Shown piece by piece: positions 2,040 through 28,473 of a DNA stretch of 64,000 nt (positions are counted from its first letter, which is position 1; every line of letters begins with the position of its first letter). This DNA is from Lichenifustis flavocetrariae (GTDB taxonomy: Bacteria; Pseudomonadota; Alphaproteobacteria; Rhizobiales; Beijerinckiaceae), in the NCBI RefSeq assembly GCF_026130545.1, contig NZ_JAMOIM010000011.1, forward strand, positions 1 to 64,000. The letters are read 5' to 3'. The position numbers and the translations under genes are program-made. A model generated the notes under the pieces. It made no database searches. It was not told where the DNA came from and saw nothing but the letters and a program-made list of their open reading frames with translations.

Positions 2040-2048
2040 GAGACTGCC

Positions 2049-5681: not shown

Positions 5682-5684
5682 GGC

Positions 5685-7912: not shown

Positions 7913-8022
7913 GGAAGCTCCTGTTTCCGACCCGTTAGAGCCGCGCTGGTGACCTGAAGCGTTTCCCCTCCGCCCATTGAGAGCGGTTATTCTTGGCCAC
8001 GGGCAGTCCAACCTTCTATGGG

Positions 8023-8718: not shown

Positions 8719-8898
8719 GTGCTCAACCACGGCGGCGCGTGACAGGCCGATCTTCCATGACCGACGCCACACCGGGATGGACCTGCGGAAAGGGACTAGA
8801 CAAGCGGGGGGTTCCTCTGATTGCCTGTATACTGTCGACTGCGCCTTGGAACGAGTCAAGGTGTGTCGTACAAGTCCACCTTAAGCAAAGGTCAAGCC
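8719..8898. promoter_or_regulatory. Divergent promoter region of the GntR regulator and the dioxygenase
   Basis: A 180-base intergenic region between two divergently transcribed genes, the natural place for a GntR operator. Two short dyads are visible: GTATAC at 8827-8832 and TGTCGTACA (TGT-N3-ACA) at 8864-8872. Neither is long enough to call an operator with confidence, but they are the best candidates. Confidence 0.35.
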
Positions 8899-9915: not shown

Positions 9916-10012
9916 CGAAGGCAATATCGATGGATCGATGCCGATCGCCCTCATGGATACCCGAAACGGCGGATGCCGCCTTTGACGGGATCAATCATGG
10001 ATACCGAGACTG

Positions 10013-11329
10013 ATGCCGACGCCACGCCGTATGAAGCTTATCGCCTATCTCAAGACCGGTCCCAGCGCCGGCCACAGCGGCGGGTGGCGCCATCCGTCGG
10101 CGGCGCTCGACGATATCTTCGAACCGTCTCGGTATGAACATATCGCCCGTGTCCTCGAGGCCGCCTGCTTCGACGCTGGCTTCTTCGCCGATACCTTCGG
10201 TCTCGGCGATACGTTTGGTGGCAGCTACGACACCTACCTGCGCCTGGGCGGGCAGACCAGCTATCTCGACCCGATGGCGGTGTTGCCCCTCATGGCTCGC
10301 GTGACCAATCATCTGGGGCTCGGCGCGACACTGTCGACGACCTTCAACACCCCGTACTGGATCGCCCGAACCCTGGCTTCCCTGGACCACCTGTCCAAGG
10401 GGCGCATCTGCTGGAATGTCGTGACCTCCGCGACCGAGATGGAGGCTCGGAATTTCGGCTTTGATGCACTTCCCTCCAAGTCCGAGCGCTACGATCGGGC
10501 CGACGAGGTGCTGGAGGCGTGCTGTACTCTTTGGGACGGTTGGCAGCCCGATCCTTTCGTGCTCGATCGCGAGAAGGGCATCTTTATCGACCCGACAAAG
10601 GTGGCACGCGCCGATTATGTCGGCCGCTATGTCAGCACGCGCGGTCCCCTCACGATTCCGCGCAGCCCGCAAGGGCGCCCCGTGTTCTTGCAAGCGGGCG
10701 CCTCCGACCGGGGCCGCGAATTCGCTGCGCGCTGGGCGGAGGCGATCTTCACAGAATCGTATTCGAAGGCCGATGCGCAGGCTTTCTACGCCGACATCAA
10801 AAGCCGAATGGCGGCCTATGGGCGACCGCCCGAACACTGCGCCGTGCTGCCTTTGATGTCGGTCGTGCTCGGCGAGACGGAGAGCATCGCCCGCGAAAAG
10901 GCGGCCTATCTCGACACGCTGGTCAGCGATGAACTTCAACTGGCCATCACCTCACAACTTGTCGGCGTCGACCTCAGTCGCGGCATCGAGAGCGAGGCAG
11001 CCGTGGTGGACGAACTTTCCCGGGGCAATCACGGCATCGAAGGCGAGCGAGCGCATGTCGCACAGGTAGCCAAGGCAGCAGGGGTGAGCTTTGCCGCCGC
11101 GGCGAAGCGACCCTACGAAATGATCGTCGGCACGCCGGACTTGGTGGCCGACCATATGGAGGACTGGTTTTTGGGGGGCGGTGCCGATGGCTTCATCCTG
11201 ATGCCCACCGTCTTCCCCATCATGTTCGAGGAGTTCGGCCGTCTAGTGGTCCCGATCCTTCAACGCCGCGGCCTGTTCCGCACCTCGTACCAAGGCGCCA
11301 CGCTACGCGACAACCTCCGGTCACCCTGA
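10013..11329 (+). CDS. NtaA-type flavin-dependent monooxygenase (second copy)
   Basis: A 438-residue LLM-class flavin monooxygenase of the NtaA/DmoA type. It shows GRICWNVVTSATEMEARNFG, RPVFLQAGASDRGREFAARWAEAIF and the C-terminal ADGFILMPTVFP with RRGLFR. It is only distantly similar to the copy at 639-2039, so the two probably take different substrates or steps. The ATG at 10013 or the one six codons later (10031) could be used. It lies about 100 bases after the dioxygenase and is likely cotranscribed with it. Confidence 0.85.
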   Translation: MPTPRRMKLIAYLKTGPSAGHSGGWRHPSAALDDIFEPSRYEHIARVLEAACFDAGFFADTFGLGDTFGGSYDTYLRLGGQTSYLDPMAVLPLMARVTNHLGLGATLSTTFNTPYWIARTLASLDHLSKGRICWNVVTSATEMEARNFGFDALPSKSERYDRADEVLEACCTLWDGWQPDPFVLDREKGIFIDPTKVARADYVGRYVSTRGPLTIPRSPQGRPVFLQAGASDRGREFAARWAEAIFTESYSKADAQAFYADIKSRMAAYGRPPEHCAVLPLMSVVLGETESIAREKAAYLDTLVSDELQLAITSQLVGVDLSRGIESEAAVVDELSRGNHGIEGERAHVAQVAKAAGVSFAAAAKRPYEMIVGTPDLVADHMEDWFLGGGADGFILMPTVFPIMFEEFGRLVVPILQRRGLFRTSYQGATLRDNLRSP

Positions 11330-12137: not shown

Positions 12138-13112
12138 GTGGAGGTCGTCACTTTGAGAGCCACCTACTCTTCCGCTCAAACTGCGAGGGACAGAACTCGC
12201 AGCTTTTGGGAAGAAGCTGTCGCTGCCGTCTACTTCCCGCTGGAGCTGCAGTTTGAGAATGGGCGCGAGTTCGCCGGAAAGCTCGACACATGGTCTCTCG
12301 GGCAAGTTTCGGTGTCCCGTAACGTGTCGGACGGATTACTCTATCGCAGGCATGCCCGTCACCTCGCCGCCGAGCGCGAGGAAAGCTTTCTAATCACCAT
12401 ACCTGAGCGGAACGAGATTCGCTTCTCCCAGGCCGGCCAGGAAGTCAGATGCCGACCAGGCGCTTGCCTGGTCGAGCGAAGTCATCTTCCTTACGAGTTC
12501 AGCCACCGAGACCCGACGTCGCTCTGGGTGCTCAAGATCCCCAACGCTCAGTTGAAAGCCCGAGTGGCTCGGCCCGAGCGCCTCGCCACGCTCCAATTCG
12601 ACGTCACGGGCGGCGTCGGCGCCTTGTTCGTTGACATGCTGCGTCTGAGCGTCGAACGGCTCGACGGGAGGAGCGAGGCGGCACAGTCCACCGCCGGCTG
12701 GCACCTGATCGACCTGCTGGCCCTGACCATCGGGGCCGACGACCGCGTTCTTGGAAGCCAGGCCTCGTCGATCCGGAACGCGCATCTGCACCGGTCGGAG
12801 CACTTCATCCGTGCCCGTCTCGCCGATGCCCGGTTGTCCCCGCAGGCGGTCGCTGACCATTGCGGGATTTCGCTGCGCTACCTGCACCGGCTGTTCGAAG
12901 AAGAAGGCACAACGGTGTGCGATTTCATCCGCACCGAACGCCTGCTGGCGTGCGATGCCATGTTGCGCGACCCGCTCTGCCGGAAAAGCATTGCCGAGAT
13001 CGCCTATGGCATGGGTTTCAGCGATCAAGCCCAATTCAGCCGCCATTACCGCGCCCGGTTCGGCTGCACGCCGCGAGAAGCCCGCGCGATGTCGCGCTTC
13101 ACGGTCCAATAG
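12138..13112 (+). CDS. AraC-family transcriptional regulator
   Basis: A 324-residue regulator. The N-terminal half matches the AraC-binding-like (PF14525-type) cupin-like sensor domain with a GACLVERSHLPYEF segment. The C-terminal hundred residues hold the two helix-turn-helix motifs (VADHCGISLRYLHRLFEEEG and IAEIAYGMGFSDQAQFSRHY) and the closing PREAR. The GTG at 12138 is preceded by GAAGAAGG. It sits directly upstream of the hyuAB/ABC/molybdenum-hydroxylase operon in the same direction and is the natural candidate activator. Confidence 0.87.
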   Translation: MEVVTLRATYSSAQTARDRTRSFWEEAVAAVYFPLELQFENGREFAGKLDTWSLGQVSVSRNVSDGLLYRRHARHLAAEREESFLITIPERNEIRFSQAGQEVRCRPGACLVERSHLPYEFSHRDPTSLWVLKIPNAQLKARVARPERLATLQFDVTGGVGALFVDMLRLSVERLDGRSEAAQSTAGWHLIDLLALTIGADDRVLGSQASSIRNAHLHRSEHFIRARLADARLSPQAVADHCGISLRYLHRLFEEEGTTVCDFIRTERLLACDAMLRDPLCRKSIAEIAYGMGFSDQAQFSRHYRARFGCTPREARAMSRFTVQ

Positions 13113-13403
13113 CTCCGGCCGGCCAAGGCGGATCCTCCATCGGCTACTTCGCCCGTGACGTGCCTGCGTAAGTGGCAGTTCTTCGTTTGCCGAGAATCTG
13201 GGCAGCTTATGCGCTGATGCGCAAGAACGACGCCCCTCAGGCGCAAGAACGACGCTCCGAAATTTCCTCTAATCCCGATCACGCCCTGCGCGACGACTGC
13301 CGAGATCACCCGGTCCGGGCAGCTTCGTCCAACCGCAGATCCGCTGGAACGAGTGAGACCTCGGCGTCAGTCGTCGAGGCTTGCGTCTGAGAAGGAAGCC
13401 TTC

Positions 13404-15428
13404 GTGCCGAACCTGCGCGTGGCTGTCGATGTCGGCGGCACCTTCACCGATATCTGCATCATGGACGAGACGACCGGTGCAATCCGGATTGAGAAGACCG
13501 CCTCCACCCGCGATCCGATTGACGGCATCATGAGCGGAGTGGGCAAGGCCGGCATCGACCTCACCCAAGTTGCCCTCTTCTCCCACGGCACGACCGTGGC
13601 TACCAACGCGCTCATCACGCGCCGCCTGCCGCGCACGGCTGTGGTCGGAACGCAAGGGTTCCGCGACGTCATCGAGATCCGCCGCGCCAACAAGGAGGAC
13701 CTCTGGGACGTCTATAAGGATGTAGTGAAGCCCTATGTCCCGCGGCGCGACCGGCTGACCGTGCCGGAGCGCGTGGACGCGGCCGGCCGCGTGGTCGAGC
13801 CGCTCGACGAGGCCGCGGCCCGCGAGATGGCCCGCATCCTCAAACGGCGGGGCGTCGAGGCTATCGCAGTGTGCTTCATGAACGCATACCTGAACGGCGC
13901 CAACGAGCGTGCCATGCAGGCGATCCTGCGAGAGGCAATGCCCGACGTGCCGATCTCGATCTCCTCAGTGGTGCTGCCGGAGATCTTCGAGCACGAGCGC
14001 TTTTCCACGACCGTGGCCAATGCGGCCGTCAGCCCCGTGGTGGTCGACTACACGACCCGGCTCGGGGACCGGCTCGCCCGCGAAGGCTACACCCGCGACC
14101 TGCTGCTGCTCCACACCGGCGGCGGCGTGATGACGCCGGCGAGCGTGAAGGATTTCGCGGCCCGTCTCGCCGGCTCGGGAATCGCGGCCGGTGCCATCGC
14201 GAGCCGTTACATCGCGGGCCTTTGCGGCTATCCCAACTCCATCGGTCTCGACATGGGCGGAACTTCGACCGACGTCTCGCTGGCCTACGACGGTCAGTCC
14301 CGTGTCACCAAGGATTGGCACATCGAGTTTGGCTACCCGATCCGCTTCTCGTCGATCGAGGTGCTCACCATCGGGGCCGGTGGTGGCTCGCTGGCTTGGA
14401 CGGACCCCGCCGGCTCATTGCGCAACGGCCCGCAATCGGCCGGCGCCCATCCCGGGCCGGCCTGCTACGGCAACGGCAATCGGCAGCCGACCAACACGGA
14501 CGCGAACGTGACGCTGGGACGGCTCGGCACGCGGCTCGCCGGCGGCAAGATCACCCTCGATCCAGAGCTTGCGCGCACCGCCGTCGCGGAAGGCGTGGCC
14601 AAGCCCTTCGGTCTCTCCGTGCCGGACGCCGCGGATGCCATTCTACGGGTGGCCAATGCAAACATGTCGGATGCCGTGCGGCTCATCTCGATCAGCCGCG
14701 GCTACGACCCGCGTGATTTCGCGTTGGTTGCCTTCGGCGGCGCCGGGGCGCTGCATGGTGTCGACGTGGCGCGTGAGCTCGCGATCCCGGTGGTCATCGT
14801 GCCGCCGAACCCTGGCGTCACCTCGGCCCTTGGTTGTTTGCTGGTCGACATGCAGCACGACTTCTCGCAAAGCTGCATGGTCGGCACCGAAGAGGCCGAC
14901 CCGGCCGCCATCGAGGCGCAGTTCGCCGAGATCGAGCGGGAGGCGCTGGACCGCCTGACTCATGAAGGCGTTGCCGAGGCCGACATCCTCCTGCAGCGCT
15001 CGGTCGACATGATGTATCGGGGCCAATGGCGCTCGCTGGCCGTCCAGGCGCCATCCCGTATCGTCTCGATCACGGAACTCGTTGCGAAATTCCATGCCGA
15101 GCACCAGCGCGAATACAACTTCCGTCGCGACGATGCGCCGGTCAGCCTGTTCCGTATCAATCTCAAGGCCACCGGGCTGGTGCCCAAGGCCGAATTCCCC
15201 GTGCACGAGCCAACCGGCGTCGTGCCCTCGCCCGCCGGGTCCCGTCCGGTCTGGTTCGACGGCACCGAGCACGACACACCGATCTATCAGCGCGACGACT
15301 TGCCGTGCGGCTTCGATTGGGTGGGGCCGGCCGTCGTCGAGCAGGTTGACGCCACCGTCGTGATCCCGCCGGGGACGCGCGCGGAGGTCGACAAATACCT
15401 GAACATCCTCATCCGCGTGAAAGGCTGA
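13404..15428 (+). CDS. hyuA: Hydantoinase/oxoprolinase subunit A
   Basis: A 674-residue cytoplasmic ATP-dependent amidohydrolase subunit. It has the actin-like phosphate-binding motifs VDVGGTFTDICI near the N-terminus and LDMGGTSTDVSL mid-protein, plus HGTTVATNALI. The family hydrolyses cyclic amides (hydantoins, 5-oxoproline) or carboxylates acetone-like substrates together with subunit B. The GTG at 13404 follows GAAGGAA at a good distance and gives the conserved start. It is followed by hyuB after four bases and heads the nine-gene operon. Confidence 0.9.
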   Translation: MPNLRVAVDVGGTFTDICIMDETTGAIRIEKTASTRDPIDGIMSGVGKAGIDLTQVALFSHGTTVATNALITRRLPRTAVVGTQGFRDVIEIRRANKEDLWDVYKDVVKPYVPRRDRLTVPERVDAAGRVVEPLDEAAAREMARILKRRGVEAIAVCFMNAYLNGANERAMQAILREAMPDVPISISSVVLPEIFEHERFSTTVANAAVSPVVVDYTTRLGDRLAREGYTRDLLLLHTGGGVMTPASVKDFAARLAGSGIAAGAIASRYIAGLCGYPNSIGLDMGGTSTDVSLAYDGQSRVTKDWHIEFGYPIRFSSIEVLTIGAGGGSLAWTDPAGSLRNGPQSAGAHPGPACYGNGNRQPTNTDANVTLGRLGTRLAGGKITLDPELARTAVAEGVAKPFGLSVPDAADAILRVANANMSDAVRLISISRGYDPRDFALVAFGGAGALHGVDVARELAIPVVIVPPNPGVTSALGCLLVDMQHDFSQSCMVGTEEADPAAIEAQFAEIEREALDRLTHEGVAEADILLQRSVDMMYRGQWRSLAVQAPSRIVSITELVAKFHAEHQREYNFRRDDAPVSLFRINLKATGLVPKAEFPVHEPTGVVPSPAGSRPVWFDGTEHDTPIYQRDDLPCGFDWVGPAVVEQVDATVVIPPGTRAEVDKYLNILIRVKG

Positions 15429-15432
15429 TCCG

Positions 15433-17394
15433 ATGACCGGAGACCTGCGGCTCGACCCCGTGACCTTCGAGGTGCTGAAGAACGCCTTCATCACCAGTGT
15501 CGATCAGATGGGTGAGCAGATCCTGAGGACCTGTTATTCCTTCGTGATCTACAACCACGATTTTTCGAGCGCGCTACACGACGCGCAGGGCGAATGCGCC
15601 GCCCAGGGTAACCAGGATATCGCGGTCCACGTCGGTACCCTGCACTTCACCTGTAAGGAAGTGATGCGCTACTTCGATGGCGACATGAACCCGGGCGACG
15701 TCTTCGCCATCAATGACCCCTATGCGGGCGGCACCCACTTCTCGGATGTGCGCCTCATCCGGCCGATCTTCGCCGACGGCAAACTCATCGCCTTCGCGCA
15801 GTCGAACGGCCACTGGTCGGACATGGGCGGCAGCGTGCCCGGGTCGTTCGACGTCGCGGCCCGGGATATGTTCCGCGAGGGCTTGCGCATCACGCCGGTC
15901 AGGCTCTTCGACAAGGGGCGGTTCTGTCGAGACGTCGCCCATCTCATCGCGTCGAACACACGCGACCCGGCCTCCATCATTGGCGACATTCAGGCGCAGG
16001 CGCAGGCCACCCAGGTCTGCGAGCGCGAGATCCTGCGCCTCGTCGGTAAATACGGCCGCGACACGGTCGAAACCGGACTTGGCGCCGTGCAGGACTATGT
16101 CGAACGGTCGGTGCGCCAGCGCATCGCGGCGCTGCCGGATGGCAGCTGGGAAACAGTGGATTTCATCGACCGCGACCCGGCCGGCGGCGAGGGCATGATC
16201 CCCATCCGCATCAAACTGACCATCCGGGGCGATAAGGCAATCTACGACTTCACCGGCAGCCACCCCACGATAGGCACCATCTATAACTCGGCTTTTGGAG
16301 CCACCTTCTCGGCGGTCGCGGCCGGCATGAAGACATTCTTCCCTGACCTGCCGCTCAATTCGGGATTCTACCGTGCTTTCGAGATCGTGGTCCCGGAAGG
16401 CTCGATCGTGGATGCCAAATGGCCCGTCGCGGTCACCGGATTCCTGATGCCCTTCGAAAAGATCATGAACGCGATCTACGAGATGTGGTCGAAGCTGATG
16501 CCGGAACGCGCGCTCGCTTGCGCGTTCAACCTCGAATACCTGCTGACGGGCGGTCGCGACGCGCGTAGCGCCGACAAGCCCCTCTTCATGTTCTACGATT
16601 GGCTTCCCGGCGGCTGGGGTGGCCGCAACGGCAAGGACGGCAGCAACGTCACGACAGCCTGCTTCGGCACCGGCATGATGGCGCAACCGGTCGAAGGCCA
16701 GGAACGGGCAAACCCGATCCTCACGACCGAGTTCGAGATCCTCCGCGACTCGGCCGGGCCCGGCAAATGGCGGGGCGGCGCGGGCGCGATCAAGACGTCC
16801 CGCCTGCTCGAATCCGAGAACACCGTCATCTCCTATATCTGCGACCGCGAGCGAGCCGTGGTGTGGGGCATCGAAGGCGGCCTGCCGTCGATGCCACATG
16901 GCCTGACCCTGAGGCGGGTCGGCGCGGAGCGGGACGAGCGCCTCGGCTCCATTTTCTCCGACGTGCCGCTCCGCGAAGGCGACGTCTTCTCGCGACCGAC
17001 CGCCGGTGGCGGTGGTTTCGGCGATCCCCTCGAGCGCGACCCCGCCCTCGTCTGCGAGGACATCAAGGACGACTACGTGTCGGTCGAACGCGCCGCCAAG
17101 GACTACGGGGTCGTGATCCGGCCCGTCGATGTCGAACTGTGCCACTACGAGGTCGATGCGGCCGCAACCGATCGCTTGCGCAACACCATACGGGCCGAGC
17201 GGCTCGCCTGGGCGCGGCTCGATCCCGAAGTCGTGGCGGCTCGTTATCGGGCCGGCGAGATCAACGCACTCGATGCCGTTCGCCAGCACGCCGTGATCCT
17301 CGACTGGGACACGGGAGCGCTTCTGCCCGAATCCACGCGCCAGTTCAGGGACGTGTTCGAACGTCGGTCAGCCGCCCAGTGGCAGGGTGGCTGA
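15433..17394 (+). CDS. hyuB: Hydantoinase/oxoprolinase subunit B
   Basis: A 653-residue partner of HyuA. Recognised segments are DPVTFEVLKNAF at the start, NDPYAGGTHFSDV near residue 95, the glycine-rich PGGWGGRNGKDG, and GPGKWRGGAGA towards the C-terminus. Together with HyuA it would open a cyclic amide ring using ATP. The tail after residue 560 is longer than in the shorter HyuB proteins. The stop lies about 90 bases before the binding-protein start. Confidence 0.9.
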   Translation: MTGDLRLDPVTFEVLKNAFITSVDQMGEQILRTCYSFVIYNHDFSSALHDAQGECAAQGNQDIAVHVGTLHFTCKEVMRYFDGDMNPGDVFAINDPYAGGTHFSDVRLIRPIFADGKLIAFAQSNGHWSDMGGSVPGSFDVAARDMFREGLRITPVRLFDKGRFCRDVAHLIASNTRDPASIIGDIQAQAQATQVCEREILRLVGKYGRDTVETGLGAVQDYVERSVRQRIAALPDGSWETVDFIDRDPAGGEGMIPIRIKLTIRGDKAIYDFTGSHPTIGTIYNSAFGATFSAVAAGMKTFFPDLPLNSGFYRAFEIVVPEGSIVDAKWPVAVTGFLMPFEKIMNAIYEMWSKLMPERALACAFNLEYLLTGGRDARSADKPLFMFYDWLPGGWGGRNGKDGSNVTTACFGTGMMAQPVEGQERANPILTTEFEILRDSAGPGKWRGGAGAIKTSRLLESENTVISYICDRERAVVWGIEGGLPSMPHGLTLRRVGAERDERLGSIFSDVPLREGDVFSRPTAGGGGFGDPLERDPALVCEDIKDDYVSVERAAKDYGVVIRPVDVELCHYEVDAAATDRLRNTIRAERLAWARLDPEVVAARYRAGEINALDAVRQHAVILDWDTGALLPESTRQFRDVFERRSAAQWQGG

Positions 17395-17482
17395 CCAGCA
17401 CACAAACCCAGCCCGAATCTTGCGAATGCGGGCCGACAAAGCCGACTTCATTATCGCACCCTTGTTTCAGGAGTTCGTCTCT

Positions 17483-18571
17483 ATGTGCATTGCGACATCC
17501 TCAATAAAGGCGTCCAGCCGCTTTGGGCTGTGCTCCCTGGCTGTTCTGGCGATAGCGACGACACCGGCCTGGGCCGCGGACGCTCCCTTTTTTCCCATGA
17601 AGATCTACGACTCGTCATCGGGCACGCCGAAGGCAGCCGAATATCAGCCACTCGACAAGGCCCAGAAACCCTACAACCTTTGCGTGCTCTTCCCGCACAT
17701 GAAGGACAGTTTCTGGGTCGCGGTCGCCTACGGCATCGTCAAGCAGGCCGAGACCGAGAACGTCAACATGAACCTCTACGAGGCGGGGGGATACGAGAAC
17801 CTGCCAAAACAGCTTTCGCAATTCGACGACTGCATGGCGGGCGGCGTCGATGCCATCATTGTTGGCGCCATCTCGGGTGCCGGCTTGACCAAGAAGTTCG
17901 AGGAAGCCAAAGCCAAGGGGATCCCGGTTGTCGGCGTCACCAACCCGCTGCCGCCGAACGCTCTGCCGGCCGCCAATTATGTCGATTTCACCGCGATGGG
18001 CGGTGTGACGGGCGAAGGACTCCTGGCGCAGTTGAAGCCTGGCGAGAAGGCAAACATCGTAACTTTCCCAGGCCCGGCTGGTTCGGGTTGGGCGGAGTCG
18101 TTCAACGATGGCTTCAAGAAGGCTGTCAGCAAGAACCCGGACGTGAAGATCCTGGGTGAGAAATTCGGTGACTCCGGTGTTGCGGTACAGCTGCAGCTCA
18201 TTCAGGACGCGCTGCAGGCCTACCCTTCGATGAACGTCATCTGGGGCTCGGCACCGACCGCCGAGGCCGCCATCGGTGCCGTTGCCGAGGCTGGCCGCAG
18301 CGACATCAAGATCATGTCGTCCTACGAGAACCAGGCGATGCTCGATGCCTTGAACCGCGGCGATATCCTGGCCTTCGCCACGCAATATCCGGTCGGCGAG
18401 GGCGCGATGGCGATCGACCAGGCCGTGCGCCTGATCGAGAAGAAGCCGGTCATCAGCCTCGTGCAGCCCATCGCGGCAGTCGTGGACAAGACGACCGTGC
18501 CCAAGCTGCAGATGGATCTCGTCCTGGCGCCGTCCAACTGGACGCCGGTCTACAACGTCAAAGCCAAGTGA
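17483..18571 (+). CDS. TorT-like periplasmic binding protein
   Basis: A 362-residue exported protein with a signal peptide ending ATTPAWA. The segments FPMKIYDSSSGTPKAAEYQP, VLFPHMKDSFWVAVAYGIV, YEAGGYENLPKQLSQFDDC and DAIIVGAISGAGL closely resemble TorT, the periplasmic TMAO-sensing partner of the TorS kinase. Here no kinase is nearby. Instead the gene is followed by a ribose-type ABC ATPase and two permeases, so it probably feeds an importer. The ATG at 17483 has CAGGAG upstream. The ligand cannot be read from sequence. Confidence 0.8.
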   Translation: MCIATSSIKASSRFGLCSLAVLAIATTPAWAADAPFFPMKIYDSSSGTPKAAEYQPLDKAQKPYNLCVLFPHMKDSFWVAVAYGIVKQAETENVNMNLYEAGGYENLPKQLSQFDDCMAGGVDAIIVGAISGAGLTKKFEEAKAKGIPVVGVTNPLPPNALPAANYVDFTAMGGVTGEGLLAQLKPGEKANIVTFPGPAGSGWAESFNDGFKKAVSKNPDVKILGEKFGDSGVAVQLQLIQDALQAYPSMNVIWGSAPTAEAAIGAVAEAGRSDIKIMSSYENQAMLDALNRGDILAFATQYPVGEGAMAIDQAVRLIEKKPVISLVQPIAAVVDKTTVPKLQMDLVLAPSNWTPVYNVKAK

Positions 18572-18640
18572 GATGACGCGGCACGCCGCCCTCGATCGGA
18601 CGGCGGCGTTCCGGTGCCACCCAGCAGCCAGGCTCTGCCC

Positions 18641-20179
18641 ATGAACAGTCTCGGCACCGCAGGCCGGCAGGATGCCCCCCTGCTCGAGCTGAAGGGAATT
18701 TCCAAGCGTTTCACCGGCGTACGGGCGCTCGATGGCGTCGATCTCGACGTCCGGGCCGGCGAGCTTCACGTGCTGTTCGGCGAGAATGGCGCAGGGAAGT
18801 CCACCCTCATCAATGTCATTTCGGGCAGCTTTCCGCCTGATGAAGGCACGTTCCGCTTCGGCGGGGAAGAGATCCACGATCTGACGCCGCATCGGGCGCG
18901 GGCGATCGGCATCTCGCCTGTGTTCCAGGAGTTTTCCCTCGTGCCGAGCCTGAGCGTCGAAGACAACCTGTTCCTCGGACGCGAGATCGCAGCCGGCGGC
19001 GTGCTCAATGCACGGCGGATGCGCAAGCGGGCGCGCACGCTGATCGACGAACTCGGCTTCGATCTCGATCCGTCGCGCCGCGTCGACGACCTGTCGCGCG
19101 CCCACCAGCAGATGACCGAGATCGCCAAGGCGCTGCTTGGCCGCGTGCGGCTGCTGATCCTCGACGAACCCACCGCCTCACTGACCGAGCGGGAAACCGG
19201 ACGCCTTTTCGAGCTCATTGTGAAGCTTAAGACCGAAGGCGTGGGCTTGATCTACGTCTCCCATCGGATGCGGGAAATCCGCGCTTTGGCCGACCGGGTG
19301 ACCGTGCTGCGCGACGGCCGCCACATCCGTACGCTCGATGCCGCGTCGGCCTCGGACGGCGATCTGGTCGAGCTGATGACGGGCCGCAAGATCGACGTTC
19401 TGTTTCCGGCCATTCCGCATGCGCCGGGTGCCGTCACCCTCGACGTCGAGAATCTGACGACGGCTGACGGCGCCGTGCAGGGCGTCAATTTCCACGCCAG
19501 GGCTGGCGAGATCACAGGCATTGCGGGCCTTGTCGGCTGCGGCAAGTCCGAGCTGGTCCGCGCCATCTACGGGATCGACGCCATCGTGGACGGGATGGTA
19601 CGACTGCATGGACATTCCGTCGAGCAGTCCGGCCCTCGGGAGAGCCTACGTCGTGGCGTAGCTTACTTCCCGGCCAACCGCGTGGCCGAAGGCCTCGCCC
19701 TGTCACGCCCAATCCGCGAGAACTCCTCGATGACGGCGCTGGATCTCGACCGTTTCGCCCGGTTAGGTTTCCTGAGACCGCGCGCAGAGCGCAGGGCGAT
19801 CTCGGTCGTCATGGAGCGGCTGAAGCTCAGGCCGCCTGACATCGAACGCAACGCCGGGGCGCTTTCGGGCGGCAACCGTCAGAAGGTGATGCTGGGCCGC
19901 GCCCTTACGCGCGACCTGCAGGTCTTCCTGTTCGATGAGCCGAGCGTGGGCATCGACGTCGGCGCCAAGGTCGAGGTCTACGAATTCATGAAGCATCTGG
20001 TCGAGACCGGTGCAGCCGTGGTGGTGGTCTCCTCCGAACTGCCGGAAGTGCTGGCCCTGTCGAACCGCCTTTACGTCATGCATCAGGGTCGCATCGCGGC
20101 CGAACTCTCGGGCGACGACAAGACCGAGCAGAACGTGCTCGCGAGTTTTTTCCAGGATCACGGGCGGGAGGCTGCATGA
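18641..20179 (+). CDS. Ribose-type ABC transporter ATP-binding protein (two ATPase domains)
   Basis: A 512-residue tandem ATPase of the RbsA/MglA type. First domain: Walker A GENGAGKST, a signature drifted to LSRAHQQ, Walker B LLILDEPTAS. Second domain: degenerate Walker A GLVGCGKSE, signature LSGGNRQK, Walker B LFDEPSVGID. The degenerate second Walker A is normal for this family. The ATG at 18641 is preferred over a GTG at 18614. The stop overlaps the first permease start (ATGA). It energises uptake of the TorT-like protein's ligand. Confidence 0.9.
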   Translation: MNSLGTAGRQDAPLLELKGISKRFTGVRALDGVDLDVRAGELHVLFGENGAGKSTLINVISGSFPPDEGTFRFGGEEIHDLTPHRARAIGISPVFQEFSLVPSLSVEDNLFLGREIAAGGVLNARRMRKRARTLIDELGFDLDPSRRVDDLSRAHQQMTEIAKALLGRVRLLILDEPTASLTERETGRLFELIVKLKTEGVGLIYVSHRMREIRALADRVTVLRDGRHIRTLDAASASDGDLVELMTGRKIDVLFPAIPHAPGAVTLDVENLTTADGAVQGVNFHARAGEITGIAGLVGCGKSELVRAIYGIDAIVDGMVRLHGHSVEQSGPRESLRRGVAYFPANRVAEGLALSRPIRENSSMTALDLDRFARLGFLRPRAERRAISVVMERLKLRPPDIERNAGALSGGNRQKVMLGRALTRDLQVFLFDEPSVGIDVGAKVEVYEFMKHLVETGAAVVVVSSELPEVLALSNRLYVMHQGRIAAELSGDDKTEQNVLASFFQDHGREAA

Positions 20180-21192
20180 GTTCCGCGGTCGCGGCGTATC
20201 CGCGCCTTGAGCGGCACCCTGGCTTCGGCCTTCTCGGACGCCTCGGTATTCTGCCGGCGCTGCTGCTCGCGGTCGTGATCGGAATGTCGGCGGCCGATCC
20301 GCACTTCTACGGGCCGATCAATATCCTCAATATTCTGCGCAACACGGCCTTTCTCACCATCGTGGCTTTTGGACAGTCGTTGGTGATCATCGGCGGTGGG
20401 TTCGATTTGTCCGTGGGGGCCATCGTGGCGCTGGCAAGCGTGGTCGCTGCGAAAGCCATGGCGGGACTCGGCGCATCCGTTCCCGGTCAGGACGCCACGA
20501 TCATCGCGGGCGGCGTCGCAGCGGGTCTCGGCTGCGGCCTGGCCGCTGGCATCGTCAATGGGCTCTGTGTCGCGAAACTCCGGGTGACCGGCTTCGTCGT
20601 TACGCTCGGCACAATGTCCGCCGTGACTGGGCTGGGGCTGATGCTGACCAACGGCATTCCGGTCTACGGTATGCCCGACAGTTTCGTGAAGGGATTCGGG
20701 CGCGCCCAGCTTCTCGGCCTTCCAACCGCCGTCTATGCGGCTCTGCTGATCCTGGCGCTCATGATCTTCGTGCAACGGCGCACGCTGTTCGGTCGATACA
20801 ACTACGCGATCGGCGGCAATGTCGAGGCCGCGGTGGTGTCCGGCGTCTCTATCGGGTGGCATGTGATCGCCGCCTATGCGGTCTCCGGGCTTCTCGCCGC
20901 CGCGACCGGACTGTTGCTGACGGCCCAGGTCGGTTCCGGGCAGGCGAGCTTTGGCGGCGACCGCATGATGCTGCAATCGATCGCCGCTGCGGTGATCGGC
21001 GGGGTCAGTCTTCGGGGTGGCGTCGGCAGGGTGGAGATCGTCGCCATCAGCGCGCTCTTCCTCTCCATCCTGAGCAACGCGGTCAACCTCCTGCACATCG
21101 ACTCCCGCATCCAGCCCATCATCCTCGGTTTGATCATGGTGGTGGCCGTCGCACTCGATGAGGCGAGCCGGCGGAGGAAGGCCCGTGTCTGA
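20176..21192 (+). CDS. Ribose-type ABC transporter permease 1
   Basis: A 338-residue inner-membrane permease of the RbsC family, with about eight to ten hydrophobic segments. It has the signature region VIIGGGFDLSVGAIVALASV and, near the C-terminus, AAVIGGVSLRGGVGRVEIVA. The ATG overlaps the ATPase stop by four bases. It forms a heterodimeric channel with the next gene's product. Confidence 0.9.
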   Translation: MSSAVAAYPRLERHPGFGLLGRLGILPALLLAVVIGMSAADPHFYGPINILNILRNTAFLTIVAFGQSLVIIGGGFDLSVGAIVALASVVAAKAMAGLGASVPGQDATIIAGGVAAGLGCGLAAGIVNGLCVAKLRVTGFVVTLGTMSAVTGLGLMLTNGIPVYGMPDSFVKGFGRAQLLGLPTAVYAALLILALMIFVQRRTLFGRYNYAIGGNVEAAVVSGVSIGWHVIAAYAVSGLLAAATGLLLTAQVGSGQASFGGDRMMLQSIAAAVIGGVSLRGGVGRVEIVAISALFLSILSNAVNLLHIDSRIQPIILGLIMVVAVALDEASRRRKARV

Positions 21193-22201
21193 CGCCGAGA
21201 CGTCCTCCGATATGGCGCTCGGTGCGACGCGAGAGCTCCGCTCCGCGGTTCGCCGGTCGCTTGTTCAAGCAGCATTGCCGATCGCTCTCCTGATGCTGCT
21301 GCTTGGCTTCGCGATCGTAGACGTCCGGGTGCTGTCGCCCGCGAACCTGATGAACATCGCGCAGCAGACCGGTTATCTGGCGCTGTTTGCCATGGCCCAG
21401 ACCGTGGTGATCCTGACCCGTGGTTTCGACCTGTCGCTCGGCCCGACGGTGTCGGCCGTCAGCGTCGGGGCGGCTCTCGCCATGGCGTCCGGCACCTCGG
21501 CCCATCAGGGGCCGAGCGTCATCCTGCTGCTCGGGCTCGGGGCTGGGTTCGTGCTCGGCGCCGCCTGCGGTCTCTTTAACGGCAGCGTGGTGGCGCTGCT
21601 TGGCGTCAACCCCTTCGTGGCGACGCTGGGCAGCTATAATATCGCCATCGGCATCGCCACGACGATATCGGGCGGTCGTCCCGTGCAAGGCGTGCCGGAT
21701 GTCTTCACCCAACTGTTCTACGGCGGCACGCTGTTCGGCGTGCCGGCCGTCGTCATCATAGCGCTGATTTTGGGCGTCATCCTCCACATCGTGCTGACCC
21801 GCAGCGTGTTCGGTCGCTCCCTTTACCTCATCGGTACCAACCCGCGTGCGGCAATGGTGGCGGGCCTTCCCGTGAAGCGGATTCTGGTCACCACCTATCT
21901 GCTGTGCTCCGGGATCGCGGCGCTCGGCGCCCTGATGCTGACAGCGCGAACCGGCTCTGGCGAACCGAACCTCGGCGGATCGTTATCGCTGCAGGCCACT
22001 GCCGCAGCCGTTATCGGCGGCACCAGCCTTGCGGGGGGCAAGGGTGGGGTCGGCACCGCCGTCCTCGGCGCCCTGTTCGTCACCATTCTCTCGAATGGCA
22101 TGAACCTTGTGCGCATCGATGGCTACGTGCAAATGGTGGTGCTCGGCGCCATCGTGATCGCCGGGGTCGTACTCGACCGTGCCCGACTGGAGCAGCGATG
22201 A
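21185..22201 (+). CDS. Ribose-type ABC transporter permease 2
   Basis: A 338-residue RbsC-like permease with VVILTRGFDLSLGPTVSAVS and AAVIGGTSLAGGKGGVGTAV. The GTG at 21185 overlaps the first permease's end by eight bases and has AGGAAGG in front of it. Two distinct permeases indicate a heteromeric translocation pore. The stop overlaps the FAD-subunit start (ATGA), which physically links importer and oxidase genes in one transcript. Confidence 0.9.
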   Translation: MSDAETSSDMALGATRELRSAVRRSLVQAALPIALLMLLLGFAIVDVRVLSPANLMNIAQQTGYLALFAMAQTVVILTRGFDLSLGPTVSAVSVGAALAMASGTSAHQGPSVILLLGLGAGFVLGAACGLFNGSVVALLGVNPFVATLGSYNIAIGIATTISGGRPVQGVPDVFTQLFYGGTLFGVPAVVIIALILGVILHIVLTRSVFGRSLYLIGTNPRAAMVAGLPVKRILVTTYLLCSGIAALGALMLTARTGSGEPNLGGSLSLQATAAAVIGGTSLAGGKGGVGTAVLGALFVTILSNGMNLVRIDGYVQMVVLGAIVIAGVVLDRARLEQR

Positions 22202-23091
22202 GCATCTTTTCGCCGCTCGTCCTGCACCAGCCGGCGTCGATTTCTGAGGCCGTGGCTCTGCTGGCTGCGGGGGGACGCGACTGCGCCCCTCTCGCGGGCG
22301 GCACATGGATTATGCGGGCACCGATCCGCCATGAAGCGCCGCCGCCCGTCTTCGTGTCATTGTCAAAGATCTCCGCATTGAGCGCCATCGCAATCTCCGA
22401 AGAACGCGTCGAACTCGGTGCTGCAGTCACTCATGCGGCGCTCGCGGAGGCCGTCGCGGGCTACCCGGACCTTCAGGTGCTCGCCGAGGCCGCCGGCCGC
22501 TCGGCCAATCCTGCGATCCGGGCGACCGCGACGATCGGTGGCAACCTGTGCACGACGAGCTTTCCGGCTGCCGATCTGTTGCCGGCTTTGCTGAGCCTCG
22601 ACGCCGAGGTGGACCTCGCCCGATCGCAGGGCCGTGAGCGCCTCAGCCTCGAAGTTTTCCTGGAACGTCGAGCGGCCCTTGTGCCCGGCTGGCTGCTGAC
22701 CAGGGTCGTCGTCCCGCGCGAGGCAGGGCGGAGCGCGCATGCGCGCCTGCCACTCCGTAAGGCCGGGGATTACCCTGTCGCCATCGTCAGCGTCGCGATC
22801 AGGCTTTGCGAGCGCGACCGCGTCACGAAAGCCTGTGTGGCAATCGGCGCTGTCGAAACCGTGGCGCGACGCTGGCGGAGCCTCGAAGCCGTGCTGCTAG
22901 GCGAGCCGGTCGATCCGGAACGTGCCGGCGCGGCAGCCGAGCGCCTTCTGTACGAGATTACGGGACGTGAGGGCATCGAGGCGCCTGGCTGGTACCGCGT
23001 CCACGTGTTGCCGTCCCTCGTCCGCCGTGCCATGGCCGGCATTGCAGAGTCACTCTCGTCAGGGAATTCGCGCCCATGCCGCTCGCCTTGA
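22198..23091 (+). CDS. Molybdenum hydroxylase FAD-binding subunit (CoxM/XdhB-like)
   Basis: A 297-residue medium subunit of the xanthine dehydrogenase/CO dehydrogenase family. FAD-binding motifs are seen at LAGGTWIMRAPIRHE near residue 36 (the usual AGGTxL is altered to AGGTWI) and ATIGGNLCTTSFPAADLLPA near residue 105. It accepts electrons from the iron-sulfur subunit and passes them to an acceptor. The start overlaps the permease stop. The end overlaps the 2Fe-2S subunit start by 16 bases. Confidence 0.88.
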   Translation: MSIFSPLVLHQPASISEAVALLAAGGRDCAPLAGGTWIMRAPIRHEAPPPVFVSLSKISALSAIAISEERVELGAAVTHAALAEAVAGYPDLQVLAEAAGRSANPAIRATATIGGNLCTTSFPAADLLPALLSLDAEVDLARSQGRERLSLEVFLERRAALVPGWLLTRVVVPREAGRSAHARLPLRKAGDYPVAIVSVAIRLCERDRVTKACVAIGAVETVARRWRSLEAVLLGEPVDPERAGAAAERLLYEITGREGIEAPGWYRVHVLPSLVRRAMAGIAESLSSGNSRPCRSP

Positions 23092-23558
23092 CTGTCAACG
23101 GGGAGGTCCGCCTCTCCAACGCGGGACCGATGACCCCGCTCCTCGACATCCTGCGCGAGGAGTTCCAGTTGACGGGCGCGAAGCCCGTTTGCCGAGAGGG
23201 TTTCTGCGGCGCCTGCATGGTGCTGCGTGATGGGCGGCCCATCTTGTCCTGCCTGACCCCTGCTGGCCTGGTCGAAGGAAGCGACATCTGCACGATCGAA
23301 GGCCTGTCGCCCGGTGGCACCCTGACGCCGCTGCAGGACGCCCTCGAGTCCCACGACGCCGTCCAATGCGGGATGTGCTTTCCTGGCATGGTGATCACCT
23401 TAACCCACGCCCTGAGGCGGACACACGACCTCACCGACGCCGAGGTTCGGCAAGCTCTCGTGGGCAACATCTGCCGTTGCACAGGCTACGAACGCATCGT
23501 CGCCGCCGCACTGGCGATCGCCGCTGCTCATGGTCCGGAGGCGGCCCGCGATGGTTGA
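23076..23558 (+). CDS. Molybdenum hydroxylase 2Fe-2S subunit (CoxS/XdhC-like)
   Basis: A 160-residue small subunit. The plant-ferredoxin-type cluster ligands are in CREGFCGAC and a fourth Cys 12 residues later (ILSC). The second cluster is bound by CGMC and CRC (NICRCTGY) in the C-terminal helical domain. It carries electrons from the molybdenum site to FAD. It overlaps its neighbours on both sides. Confidence 0.92.
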   Translation: MPLALTVNGEVRLSNAGPMTPLLDILREEFQLTGAKPVCREGFCGACMVLRDGRPILSCLTPAGLVEGSDICTIEGLSPGGTLTPLQDALESHDAVQCGMCFPGMVITLTHALRRTHDLTDAEVRQALVGNICRCTGYERIVAAALAIAAAHGPEAARDG

Positions 23559-25935
23559 TCCTGCCGACACCGTCATGAATTTCCGCCGCCGCGACGCGCG
23601 CGACAAGCTCACCGGGCGCACGCGCTTCACCATCGATCGCTTCCCGGCGGGTCTGCTGCACGGCGCGGTGTTGCGCGCCGGCGTAGCCTCGGGCATTTTG
23701 CGCAAACTCGATGTCAGCCGGGCCGCGACGATGCCGGGCGTGCGCGCCGTAGTGACGGCGGGCGATGCGCCGGGGCGGATCGGCATCGGCATCGCCGACC
23801 ATCCGCTCTTCGTCGTGGATCGGGTCCGCTACCATGGGGAGCCGCTGGCAGCTATAGCGGCCGATACGTTCGATCAGGCGCAGGCCGCGCTTGCTGCCAT
23901 TGTCTTCGACATCGCGCCGATGCCGGCCGTACTCGACATGGAAGCGGCTCTCGCCGCAGAGGCGCCGCTGGTGCACCCCGACTGGCGGAGCTACGAGGTT
24001 CTCTTCGCAGGCGGCGCGCGGGGCGGCAATGTCGCCTGGGAGGCGACCGCCGTGCGCGGCGACGTCGATGCGGCCTTCGCCCGGCCTGACGTGACGATCG
24101 TCGATAGCGCCTTTCGGGTCGGCCGCCAGAACCACGTCGCCTTCGAGCCGCGCGCCGCCATCGCCGCTTTCGAGGATGGCCGCCTCCATATCGAGACCTC
24201 GACCCAGGTGCCTTGGACGGTGCGCAACGGTACGGCACGGCTACTCGGCATCCGCGCTTCCGCGGTACGGGTCACGGTTCCGCCGGTTGGCGGCGGCTTC
24301 GGGCTCAAGTTCGACCTCGCCATCGAGCCTTTCGCGGCGCTGCTCGCGCGGAAGAGCGGCCGTCCGGTCCGCCTCGTGAATTCCCGCGAGGAGGAGATGC
24401 TGACCTGCCTGTTCCGTGAGAATGCCGAGATCCGTATACGCTCAGCGGTCACAAAGGCCGGCGAGATCCTCGGCCGGGAGGCGGTTGTGCTGATGGATTG
24501 CGGTGCCTATGGGGGCGAGCAGATCTTTCTTACCACCATGACGGCGCACACGCTGGGAGGCAATTATCGGGTGGGTGCGACGCGGCTGGTGTCGCGCGCT
24601 ATCTACACCAACACGGCCCCGAACGGCGCCTTCCGGGCCTGCAACGGCGTCTACAACACCTTTGCGCTCGAGCGGCATACCGATGAGATCGCGGCGGCGA
24701 TCGGCATGGACCCGCTCGCCTTCCGCCGCCGCAACGTTCTTGGCGACGGCGCGCTAGGCGCAACCGGCCAAATCTTCGAAGGTGACGTGCTCGGCCCCAT
24801 GCTCGATCGGATGGCGGAGCTGCGGGCCGACGCGCCGGACCTTGTTCCGGGTGACGACGGCCGGCTCTACGGGCGAGCCACGACGGTCGGCACATGGTTC
24901 GTCTTCGTCGGGCCCTCGGCCGCGACGGTGAACATGAACGCCGACGGGAGCGCGACCCTGGTAACGTCCGGGGTCGAGATCGGCTCGGGATCGACCATGC
25001 AGGCCTTGCCGCAGATCGTGGCCGGCGTACTTGGGATCCGGCCCGACGACGTGGTGGTGCGGAGTGCCGACACCGACGCGGCCGGCTACGACGTCGGAGT
25101 GGGCGGCGGCCGGACTACGGTGTCGCTCGGCGCCGCGAGCTTGAAGGCGGCCACCGAGGTACGCGGCAAGTTGCTCGCCGTCGCGGCCGCGATGATGGAT
25201 GTCGCGCCCGACGATCTCGTCATGCGCGACGGTCGCATCGAGCGTCCGGGCGCGAACCGTTACGGTTATTCGATTGCCGAAGTCGCGGCTCGGGCCCAGG
25301 CGCTGCAAGGGCCTGTGGCCGGAACCGGCGCCTTCACGGGTCAGGGCGTCAAGGCCATGGTAGGCTGCGCGGCGGGCCACTTCCTCGACGCGATCGATAT
25401 CCCGGTTTTCGCCGTTCACGACTGCGACGTGGCGGTTGACCGCGAGACCGGCCACGTCGAGGTCCTGGGCTATCGTGTGGTCCAGGATGTCGGCCGCGCC
25501 CTCAACCCGAGCGCAGTCGGGGGGCAGATCCAGGGCGGCGTCGTGCAGGGACTTGGCTACGCGCTGCATGAAGATGTGACGATCGGCTCGGACGGCTGCG
25601 TCCGCCAGTCCGGTTTCGAAACCTACCGGCTGCCGCTCGCGGGCGACGTCGTGCCGGTCGCGATCAGCCTCTACGAGGGCGCGCCGTCATCGGGCCCACT
25701 CGGCACCAAGGGCGCCGGCGAAGTGCCGATCCTCAATGTCGGAGCGACTGTCGCCTGCGCGGTGGCCAATGCCACCGGCTTGCGGGTGCAGGAACTACCG
25801 TTGACGCCGCCACGCGTGCTCGAACGGCTGCTCGGGCGCAAGCCGGACCTGGCATTCCCGCACATCGCCGAGCGCTGGGCCGACAATCTCCTGCATCCGC
25901 ATGGGCAGAGTACGGGGTCGGGAGACGGTGGGTGA
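23551..25935 (+). CDS. Molybdenum hydroxylase large subunit (CoxL/XdhA-like)
   Basis: A 794-residue molybdopterin-cytosine-dinucleotide-type catalytic subunit. The N-terminal Ald_Xan_dh_C-like region (KLTGRTRFTIDRFPAGLLHG) is followed by VGGGFGLKFDLAIEPFAALL, the cofactor segment PNGAFRACNGVYNTFALE and the catalytic Glu in GTKGAGEVPILNVGA. The CO dehydrogenase active-site loop (AYRCSFR) is absent at the corresponding place, so this is an organic-substrate hydroxylase. Such enzymes add oxygen from water to an N-heterocycle or aldehyde. It is the last intact gene of the operon. Confidence 0.9.
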   Translation: MVDPADTVMNFRRRDARDKLTGRTRFTIDRFPAGLLHGAVLRAGVASGILRKLDVSRAATMPGVRAVVTAGDAPGRIGIGIADHPLFVVDRVRYHGEPLAAIAADTFDQAQAALAAIVFDIAPMPAVLDMEAALAAEAPLVHPDWRSYEVLFAGGARGGNVAWEATAVRGDVDAAFARPDVTIVDSAFRVGRQNHVAFEPRAAIAAFEDGRLHIETSTQVPWTVRNGTARLLGIRASAVRVTVPPVGGGFGLKFDLAIEPFAALLARKSGRPVRLVNSREEEMLTCLFRENAEIRIRSAVTKAGEILGREAVVLMDCGAYGGEQIFLTTMTAHTLGGNYRVGATRLVSRAIYTNTAPNGAFRACNGVYNTFALERHTDEIAAAIGMDPLAFRRRNVLGDGALGATGQIFEGDVLGPMLDRMAELRADAPDLVPGDDGRLYGRATTVGTWFVFVGPSAATVNMNADGSATLVTSGVEIGSGSTMQALPQIVAGVLGIRPDDVVVRSADTDAAGYDVGVGGGRTTVSLGAASLKAATEVRGKLLAVAAAMMDVAPDDLVMRDGRIERPGANRYGYSIAEVAARAQALQGPVAGTGAFTGQGVKAMVGCAAGHFLDAIDIPVFAVHDCDVAVDRETGHVEVLGYRVVQDVGRALNPSAVGGQIQGGVVQGLGYALHEDVTIGSDGCVRQSGFETYRLPLAGDVVPVAISLYEGAPSSGPLGTKGAGEVPILNVGATVACAVANATGLRVQELPLTPPRVLERLLGRKPDLAFPHIAERWADNLLHPHGQSTGSGDGG

Positions 25936-26700
25936 GGGGCAAACCACGACGGCAGCGGCTCAGCCTGCGGTCCTGACCACCGACGTCCCACGCTTGGAGG
26001 ACGCCGAAGCGACCCGCCTCGCGCAGGAGCTCTTCGGCATCTCGGGGCGGGTCGCCCGGCTGACGAGCGAGCGGGACGCCAACTTCCAAGTTGAGGCGCC
26101 GGACGGGCGCGCCTTCGTTCTGAAACTCAGCAACGCGGCCGAGGACCCGGCGATCACCAATTTTTAGACTGCGGCGCTGCGGCACATCGAGCGATGCTCG
26201 CCCGGTCTGCCCGTACCGTTCGTCTGCGCTTCCTTGGCGGGCGAGGACGAGACCACGGTCACGATTGCGGCTGGCTCGCGCCATGTTGTCCGCCTGCTCA
26301 CCTATCTCCGAGGGGAACCCCTGCACCGCGTGGTCCCCTCCTTGCCGCAGGCCGCCAACCTCGGTCGCTGCCTCGCTGGGATCGGGCTCTCGCTTCGCGA
26401 CTTCCGGCCGCCGATCATGATCTGCTCTGGGATCTCAAGGGCGCCGCTCGCCTACGGCCTCTGCTGCCACATGTGGCCTCGGACAGCCGTGCCCTCGTTG
26501 CACGGCGGCTCGACCACCTAGAGGATAACATACTGCCGCGCCTTGCCAAGCTGCGGCGGCAGGTGGTGCACAACGATCTCAATCCCCACAATGTACCCGT
26601 CGATCCGGCCTACACGGACCGCGTCACCGGCATCCTCGAATTCGGCGACATGGTGGACACGCATCGGGTCAACCACGTCGCCGTGGGCGCCGCCTACCAG
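25928..26700 (+). pseudogene. Aminoglycoside-phosphotransferase-like kinase, nonsense and frameshift
   Basis: The GTG at 25928 overlaps the oxidase stop, and the frame matches the N-terminus of the hydroxylysine-kinase-like phosphotransferases (ERDANFQVEAPDGRAFVLKL). A TAG at 26165-26167 stands where the family has Gln in NFQTAALLHI, a one-base change from CAG. The same frame continues to about 26402 (RLLTYLRGEPLHRV). There it shifts to another frame carrying the catalytic loop VVHNDLNPHNV and ILEFGDMVDT. The C-terminus is lost after about 26700. It was once the tenth gene of the operon. Confidence 0.8.
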
Positions 26701-26756
26701 GTCGGCTGCCCCGACATGATTGGACAGATCGCCGCCTTCGGGGCGCCTACCATGCC

Positions 26757-28337: not shown

Positions 28338-28453
28338 CCGCCGCCAAAGGTGTGGTACACATCTTAGCTGATCATTAGCGCCGAATTTCCTTGCAAAAAC
28401 ACCAGAACCATCTGATTGATGGAAGCATAGATGATCATTGGGGAGCAGGAGGC

Positions 28454-28473
28454 TGCTTCCCATGTGCTTCCCA
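28454..28473. promoter_or_regulatory. Candidate integrase arm-binding sites, left
   Basis: Two direct copies of TGCTTCCCA with an 11-base period. The 19-mer gcttcccatgtgcttccca occurs identically at 48531-48549 near the other end. Short repeated sites just inside both attachment repeats are the usual pattern of arm-type integrase sites. It overlaps the likely integrase start codon, which would allow autoregulation. Confidence 0.55.

Follow-up and report, generated by a model that had tools for sequence, protein, structure and literature searches.

Gene content and arrangement of the operon

We analyzed a 64,000-nucleotide stretch of DNA (referred to here as the window; positions 1 to 64,000 of contig NZ_JAMOIM010000011.1) from Lichenifustis flavocetrariae, the genome of which comprises 7.5 Mb in 180 contigs. 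Nine plus-strand genes between positions 13404 and 25935 encode a HyuAB-type ring opener, a TorT-like ATP-binding cassette (ABC) importer, and a three-subunit molybdenum hydroxylase, and a gene for an AraC-family regulator precedes them. All of these families had been named in an initial annotation made from the sequence alone, and domain models recovered each of them. The nine genes form a real and conserved operon and not a chance cluster. Judging from the gene content and the genomic context described below, we consider it probable that the operon serves the breakdown of a small N-containing ring compound by way of a lactam.

The regulator gene (12138 to 13112; plus strand, as are all genes in this paragraph) was assigned by the Pfam models AraC_binding_2 and HTH_18. 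It is followed by the gene for HyuA, the ATP-binding subunit of an ATP-dependent lactamase/hydantoinase (13404 to 15428; Pfam, NCBIfam, and PDB entries 7hk5 and 6yra), which starts with a GTG at 13404 in a reading frame open from 13353, and by that for HyuB, the metal-dependent ring-opening subunit (15433 to 17394; Pfam, and metal ligands aligned with CapB [6yra_B]). The importer consists of a TorT-like substrate-binding protein of the Peripla_BP_4 type (17483 to 18571; Pfam), a tandem ABC ATPase of the sugar/CUT2 type (18614 to 20179), and two BPD_transp_2 permeases (20176 to 21192 and 21185 to 22201; alternative start of the second, 21158), the last three being assigned by domain models. The molybdenum hydroxylase is encoded by separate genes for a flavin adenine dinucleotide (FAD) subunit (22198 to 23091; Pfam FAD_binding_5 and CO_deh_flav_C), a two-[2Fe-2S] subunit (23076 to 23558; Pfam Fer2 and Fer2_2, with the cysteine motifs visible in the translation), and the molybdenum cofactor large subunit (23551 to 25935; Pfam Ald_Xan_dh_C, MoCoBD_1, and MoCoBD_2; alternative start, 23530). 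A decayed remnant of an APH-family gene (25955 to 26739), with one stop and a frame change, marks the border of the operon.

Read directly, the gaps were 4 bases between the HyuA and HyuB genes, 88 bases between those for HyuB and the binding protein, and 42 bases between those for the binding protein and the ATPase. ATGA overlaps were found at two junctions (ATPase/permease 1 at 20176 and permease 2/FAD subunit at 22198) and not at three, as initially annotated. Three further overlaps of 8 to 16 bases were confirmed for the chosen starts: 8 bases between the permease genes with the GTG start at 21185 (35 with the ATG at 21158), 16 bases between the FAD and iron-sulfur subunit genes, and 8 bases between the iron-sulfur and molybdenum subunit genes with the ATG start at 23551 (29 with the ATG at 23530).

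Recurrence of the gene order in other genomes

An alignment of six molybdenum subunits was used to scan genomes, each species being represented by one, and 139 relatives were found; the 80 best of these were taken as loci, and this sample leans towards the window sequence. Flanks of up to 10 kb were read, and an identity of 60% or more defined a HyuAB orthologue. The nine-gene order, the search for which had been suggested at the outset, was present: the same nine genes occurred in the same order at 27 of the 80 loci (16 from Bradyrhizobium, 4 from Ancylobacter, 1 from Xanthobacteraceae, and 6 from Aurantimonadaceae), and an Aureimonas plasmid carried them in identical order. This recurrence supports the earlier proposal of a conserved unit for import, oxidation, and ATP-driven ring opening, within which the order of steps would be as set out below.

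A second type of lactam opener, the biotin-linked 5-oxoprolinase type (i.e., PxpA, biotin carboxyl carrier protein [BCCP], biotin carboxylase, PxpB, and PxpC; the Pxp set), was also found in the flanks. HyuAB orthologues were present at 54 of the 80 loci, a Pxp set without HyuAB at 13, and neither at 13, two of which (L068 and L098) lie on contigs of less than 4 kb.

The molybdenum subunit itself is rare, being found in 4 of 385 genomes of the class at an E value of 1e-150, the own genome included; on plasmids, 13 records matched it at 66 to 71% identity with E values below 1e-120. The genome of L. flavocetrariae contained 17 MoCoBD_2 matches corresponding to 14 loci, this operon included, and no HyuB place (there are four in that genome) was found closer than 10 kb to any of the 13 other large-subunit loci. 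Contig C90 contained four of the large-subunit matches, three of which are clustered in about 13 kb.

Twenty selected neighbors in loci with odd or exact gene order (L033, L058, L059, L063, L065, L067, L076, L078, L099, L103, and L105) revealed no common extra gene. CoxE- and AAA-type genes were observed behind the molybdenum gene in L063 alone. Two leads were dropped: a mu-crystallin-like gene in L059, which scored over the cut-off for the iminosuccinate reductase BhcD, and homarine.

The HyuAB ring opener and its genomic partners

HyuAB is a member of the ATP-dependent lactamase/hydantoinase family. Alignments of HyuA revealed the phosphate and adenosine motifs of CapA (DVGGTFTD, DMGGTSTD, and GAHPGP), and the Asp-His-Asp-His metal ligands of HyuB all align with Asp41, His99, Asp102, and His124 of CapB (positions counted by eye); these CapA motifs and CapB ligands are described in PMC8453981. 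Both subunits fell below the caprolactamase equivalog cut-offs of 1000 bits (NF050156 and NF050157), with 494.7 bits for HyuA against the NCBIfam caprolactamase alpha model and 311 bits for HyuB; HyuA is thus not that equivalog.

Sequences upstream of the operon were read for 20 of the 27 loci with the exact order, and LamB_YcsF was searched for in 18 genomes. The AraC gene adjoins HyuA in all 20 loci, and a full Pxp set is located upstream in 18; the upstream sequence of the other two (L043 and L047) contains a divergent, second HyuAB pair instead. Adding 23 other HyuAB loci with Pxp in their flanks, at least 41 of the 54 HyuAB loci carry Pxp as well. We had considered that HyuAB and Pxp replace each other, and we rejected this idea as a flank artefact for most loci given the upstream Pxp in 18 of 20; 13 of the 80 loci still have Pxp without HyuAB, but the flanks are limited there too.

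The window contained no remnant of Pxp or an aminotransferase (best tblastn E value, 0.088). A complete Pxp module is present on another contig of the same genome (C136; L169, 4041 to 11931), where PxpC-PxpB-biotin carboxylase-BCCP diverge from LysR-PxpA. This layout equals that found upstream of the operon in Ancylobacter, and an open APH-family gene follows it; the cluster therefore looks split between contigs in this strain. On a Sinorhizobium sojae plasmid (L137), Pxp, a TorT importer, AraC, HyuAB, and the molybdenum hydroxylase were observed in one stretch.

Aminotransferase genes were detected in the flanks of 25 of the 80 loci and upstream in 4 more (i.e., at least 29 of 80), and in 4 of the 20 exact-order loci read upstream the gene lies between AraC and HyuA. 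Three of these aminotransferases that were scanned (L016, L053, and L026) scored above the broader PRK06105 cut-off. The route had been called self-contained in the initial annotation. The evidence does not support this description, given the additional Pxp at most HyuAB loci, the aminotransferases, and the strain's own Pxp module on a separate contig.

An orthologue of the AraC regulator was present in 27 of 31 genomes searched. Because these comprised all 27 genomes of the HyuAB types and none of the 4 of the Pxp-only types, the distribution favors the protein as a putative regulator of the HyuAB half. Speaking against a strict link, weaker AraC relatives (29 to 49% identity) are located near the molybdenum genes in six loci without HyuAB orthologues (L063, L072, L076, L093, L099, and L105).

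The TorT-like importer

The best PDB match of the binding protein was 4yhs_A (E value, 1.4e-72), and 3o1h is a further solved relative. Its score passed the cut-off of PRK10936 (284.8 versus 200 bits) and missed that of the TorT model TIGR02955 (215 versus 310 bits). We rejected a role as a trimethylamine N-oxide (TMAO) sensor because the TIGR02955 cut-off was missed and ABC genes adjoin the gene instead of TorS/TorR; none of the genes annotated from 561 to 29673 encodes a sensor kinase.

Among plasmids, 34 records contained a TorT relative, and 24 of these were read. The binding proteins were approximately 40 to 50% identical to that of the window, so that their ligand need not be the same. 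Seventeen of the 20 loci in which the TorT relative had ABC partners were located beside HyuAB or Pxp, and 3 had an amidohydrolase instead; none of the 4 with a TorS kinase had a lactam opener. In two cases (L140, Ruegeria TM1040; L141, Aestuarium), the TorT-Pxp cassette lies beside genes for gamma-aminobutyrate (GABA) transaminase and succinate-semialdehyde dehydrogenase (SSADH), and those of L141 passed curated cut-offs (818.1 versus 724 bits and 712.8 versus 646.35 bits, respectively). A third cassette (L138, Rhizobium CIAT894) is accompanied by SSADH and biotin synthesis genes (13259 to 18984), the latter fitting the biotin dependence of the Pxp system. Because HyuAB or Pxp accompanies the importer so regularly and GABA transaminase, SSADH, and biotin genes stand beside the cassettes, the simplest reading of these neighborhoods would be that ring opening of a lactam yields a GABA-like amino acid.

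In L029, L148, and L143, an amidohydrolase and no lactamase accompanied the TorT-type importer, and the two of these loci that are from Rhodococcus also had SSADH. These importers may represent an offshoot serving other ring compounds.

The molybdenum hydroxylase

The enzyme belongs to the xanthine-oxidase superfamily: its FAD, two-[2Fe-2S], and molybdenum cofactor domains all scored over the Pfam cut-offs, and the catalytic glutamate (Glu731) is present. In an alignment of 89 molybdenum subunit rows (the window included, and a few genomes represented twice), Phe261, Glu330, Met337, Cys371, Asn372, and Glu731 were invariant in all rows.

Phe261 aligned with Phe425 and Cys371 with Tyr535 of the Desulfovibrio aldehyde oxidoreductase, residues that sandwich benzaldehyde in that enzyme (PMC4726530). 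In an alignment with Rhodobacter xanthine dehydrogenase (1jro_B), the positions of Phe261 and Met337 are occupied by a Glu and an Arg, which bind the purine there. E. coli XdhA differs from our family at all of the invariant positions but Glu731 and has Gln and Ala where the Rhodobacter enzyme has Glu and Arg. As XdhA also does without the Glu/Arg pair, the pocket residues set the family apart but do not on their own exclude purines. How PDB matches rank is a poor guide to the substrate, the best match of E. coli XdhA being 4-hydroxybenzoyl-CoA reductase. The lost aromatic wall and the fixed acidic residue nearby would fit a small, possibly charged, nonaromatic ring.

The family labels, together with a nucleoside hydrolase gene on the other strand (2049 to 3119), could suggest purine catabolism by a true xanthine dehydrogenase. 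However, all three subunits scored far below the xanthine-dehydrogenase cut-offs (374.8 versus 780 bits for the molybdenum subunit), two pocket residues of the Rhodobacter enzyme are replaced (with the reservation for XdhA just given), and the nucleoside hydrolase, which was not searched for in the relatives, lies outside the nine conserved genes. We therefore regard purine catabolism as hardly credible.

Proposed pathway and alternatives

From the gene families, motifs, conserved order, and linkage to lactam openers, we infer a substrate type, an order of steps, and a mode of regulation as follows. Uptake of the compound would be the task of the CUT2-type ABC transporter together with the TorT-like protein. 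The three-subunit hydroxylase would transfer an oxygen from water to the ring carbon beside the nitrogen of a cyclic amine or imine (the 1-pyrroline and piperideine types are examples). The resulting lactam would be activated by HyuA with ATP and hydrolyzed to an amino acid by the metal enzyme HyuB. The pathway would be completed by ordinary aldehyde dehydrogenases and by a class III aminotransferase, which some relatives encode in the cluster or next to it. The compound or its lactam is probably the signal to which the AraC protein responds, and the operon is probably substrate induced. The placement of the molybdenum enzyme upstream of HyuAB is tentative, and our confidence in it falls a little short of even; the place of this enzyme in the pathway is our main doubt.

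The initial annotation had listed purine-, pyrimidine-, hydantoin-, and lactam-like N-heterocycles as substrates. Of these, the context favors the lactam type over the other three because at 17 of 20 plasmid loci this importer type was accompanied by HyuAB or Pxp, in two cases along with GABA transaminase and SSADH, and because the xanthine-dehydrogenase cut-offs were missed.

Several observations weigh against this scheme. No lactam opener was present in the flanks of 13 of the 80 loci. HyuAB orthologues (59 to 71% identity) were found at six places without an orthologous molybdenum subunit in the stretch read (at one of them, a relative with 31% identity lies about 5 kb away), and HyuAB thus does not depend on the molybdenum enzyme everywhere. 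HyuAB and Pxp usually co-occur, so that two different amides may be handled, for which the scheme does not account. Regarding the later steps, a GABA transaminase scoring over the TIGR00700 cut-off was found in none of the 24 genomes searched. The remaining objections concern the role of the molybdenum enzyme and the nature of the ring, and they bring two other pathways into consideration.

The first objection is the scarcity of SSADH-like genes beside the molybdenum enzyme: among the importer-lactamase cassettes on plasmids, 7 of the 12 lacking the enzyme had such a gene nearby and none of the 5 containing it did, and of the 80 genome loci 2 had one (L094 and L095). This pattern fits the molybdenum enzyme as an aldehyde oxidase. 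The lactam itself would then be imported and opened by HyuAB in the first step, an aminotransferase would produce a semialdehyde, and the molybdenum enzyme, as an aldehyde oxidoreductase replacing SSADH, would convert the latter to a dicarboxylic acid. Aminotransferases in or beside at least 29 of the 80 loci agree with such a route, as does the position of Phe261 at one of the benzaldehyde-sandwiching residues reported in PMC4726530. However, 16 of the 20 loci read upstream lack an aminotransferase between AraC and HyuA, so that the operon there would encode steps 1 and 3 without step 2; SSADH scored over its cut-off in 22 of 24 genomes searched, which makes a stand-in unneeded; and L094 and L095 have both the molybdenum enzyme and an SSADH-like gene. 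We consider this order of steps unlikely.

Regarding the ring, N-methylhydantoinase was the best PDB match of both HyuA and HyuB, with HyuA scoring higher against it (445 bits; 7hk5) than against caprolactamase (345 bits; 6yra), and the pocket segment of the molybdenum subunit was nearest to nicotinate dehydrogenase (3hrd), which acts on an aromatic ring. Both matches would suit an aromatic N-heterocycle or a cyclic ureide (i.e., of the imidazole, creatinine, pyridine, pyrimidine, or hydantoin type) that is converted by the molybdenum enzyme to an oxo ring and opened by HyuAB acting as a hydantoinase. The amidohydrolase and SSADH beside TorT-type importers in Rhodococcus, which presumably resemble a pyridine route, may be counted in the same direction. 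On the other hand, no ring reductase, carbamoylase, or ureidase is encoded among the nine genes, the Pxp and GABA-pathway partners point to lactams, and the second aromatic-sandwich position is occupied by Cys371, neither Phe nor Tyr. The nicotinate-dehydrogenase match slightly lowers the probability of a lactam intermediate and slightly raises that of an aromatic or ureide substrate, which we still judge to be rather improbable.

A further scenario, about which we are quite doubtful, would retain the lactam and account for both openers. The molybdenum enzyme would oxidize a charged cyclic iminium (e.g., N-methylpyrrolinium or pyrrolinium) originating from plant alkaloid or polyamine metabolism, and invariant Glu330 would probably lie in the substrate funnel. 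HyuAB would open N-substituted lactams and the biotin-PxpABC system N-H lactams, a division suggested because a biotin carboxylase could not carboxylate N-substituted lactams. If true, this would amount to two-track lactam catabolism in plant-associated bacteria and would explain why the two openers usually co-occur.

Surroundings of the operon

APH-family genes related to the remnant were observed behind the operon, next to a class III aminotransferase, in two Aureimonas loci: a PRK06148-like one in L039 and another in L044. In the window, a tyrosine integrase gene (28438 to 29673) is followed by a drop in G+C content from approximately 0.67 to 0.56 to 0.62; this region is probably an integrated element adjoining the end of the operon. 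Upstream, a separate neighborhood (561 to 11329) encodes two NtaA/DmoA-type flavin monooxygenases, a 2-oxoglutarate-Fe(II) oxygenase, a nucleoside hydrolase, a GntR regulator, and a Liv-type ABC importer.

Comparison with known systems

In the open-licence literature searched, we found no description of an operon that unites these enzymes with a dedicated importer, which is weak evidence of absence; the operon is apparently not previously described in that literature. Our proposal offers a joint function for three families that are labelled as unrelated (hydantoinase, xanthine dehydrogenase, and TorT/sugar transporter) and whose co-occurrence is repeated across many rhizobia. If correct, it would represent a molybdenum-dependent entry to lactam catabolism, would account for the frequent membership of "TorT" proteins in importers, and would supply a sensor and enzymes for lactams, a group that includes nylon monomers.

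The periplasmic TMAO protein TorT is related to the binding protein at the level of PRK10936 but not of TIGR02955, and an ABC ATPase and permeases adjoin the gene here. PxpABC 5-oxoprolinase, with its biotin carboxylase and carrier, is also annotated as a cyclic-amide opener and stands beside the operon in 18 of the 20 exact-order loci read upstream; it belongs to other protein families than HyuAB, and in L. flavocetrariae it is encoded on contig C136 and not in the window.

The first step of anaerobic indoleacetate degradation is molybdenum dependent. In Aromatoleum and Azoarcus, this pathway includes ATP-dependent, HyuAB-like opening of an oxidized N-ring by IaaCE, as proposed in PMC8453981, and we liken it to the present operon by description only. 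An indole-3-acetate route of the Aromatoleum type, in which the molybdenum enzyme would form 2-oxoindole-acetate for opening by an IaaCE-like HyuAB, is nevertheless very unlikely here: the partners are an aminotransferase and Pxp instead, a point that is weak in that iaa genes were not searched for.

The proposed oxidation is of the same reaction type as that of mammalian aldehyde oxidase, a molybdenum hydroxylase that turns cyclic iminium ions into lactams; the enzyme here consists of three separate subunits, and its activity is predicted. The caprolactamase CapAB shares with HyuAB the two-subunit, ATP-dependent lactamase architecture and the same motifs, but HyuAB scored below the caprolactamase cut-offs, and the present operon adds an importer and a molybdenum hydroxylase. 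An AraC-type regulator is common to this operon and to the lactam operon of Pseudomonas putida, where it is OplR according to the review PMC11683335; the two operons, with OplR and OplBA on the Pseudomonas side, are likened here by description. Regarding the later reactions, the proposed scheme resembles the caprolactam pathway, in which a lactamase, an aminotransferase, and an aldehyde dehydrogenase act in this order.

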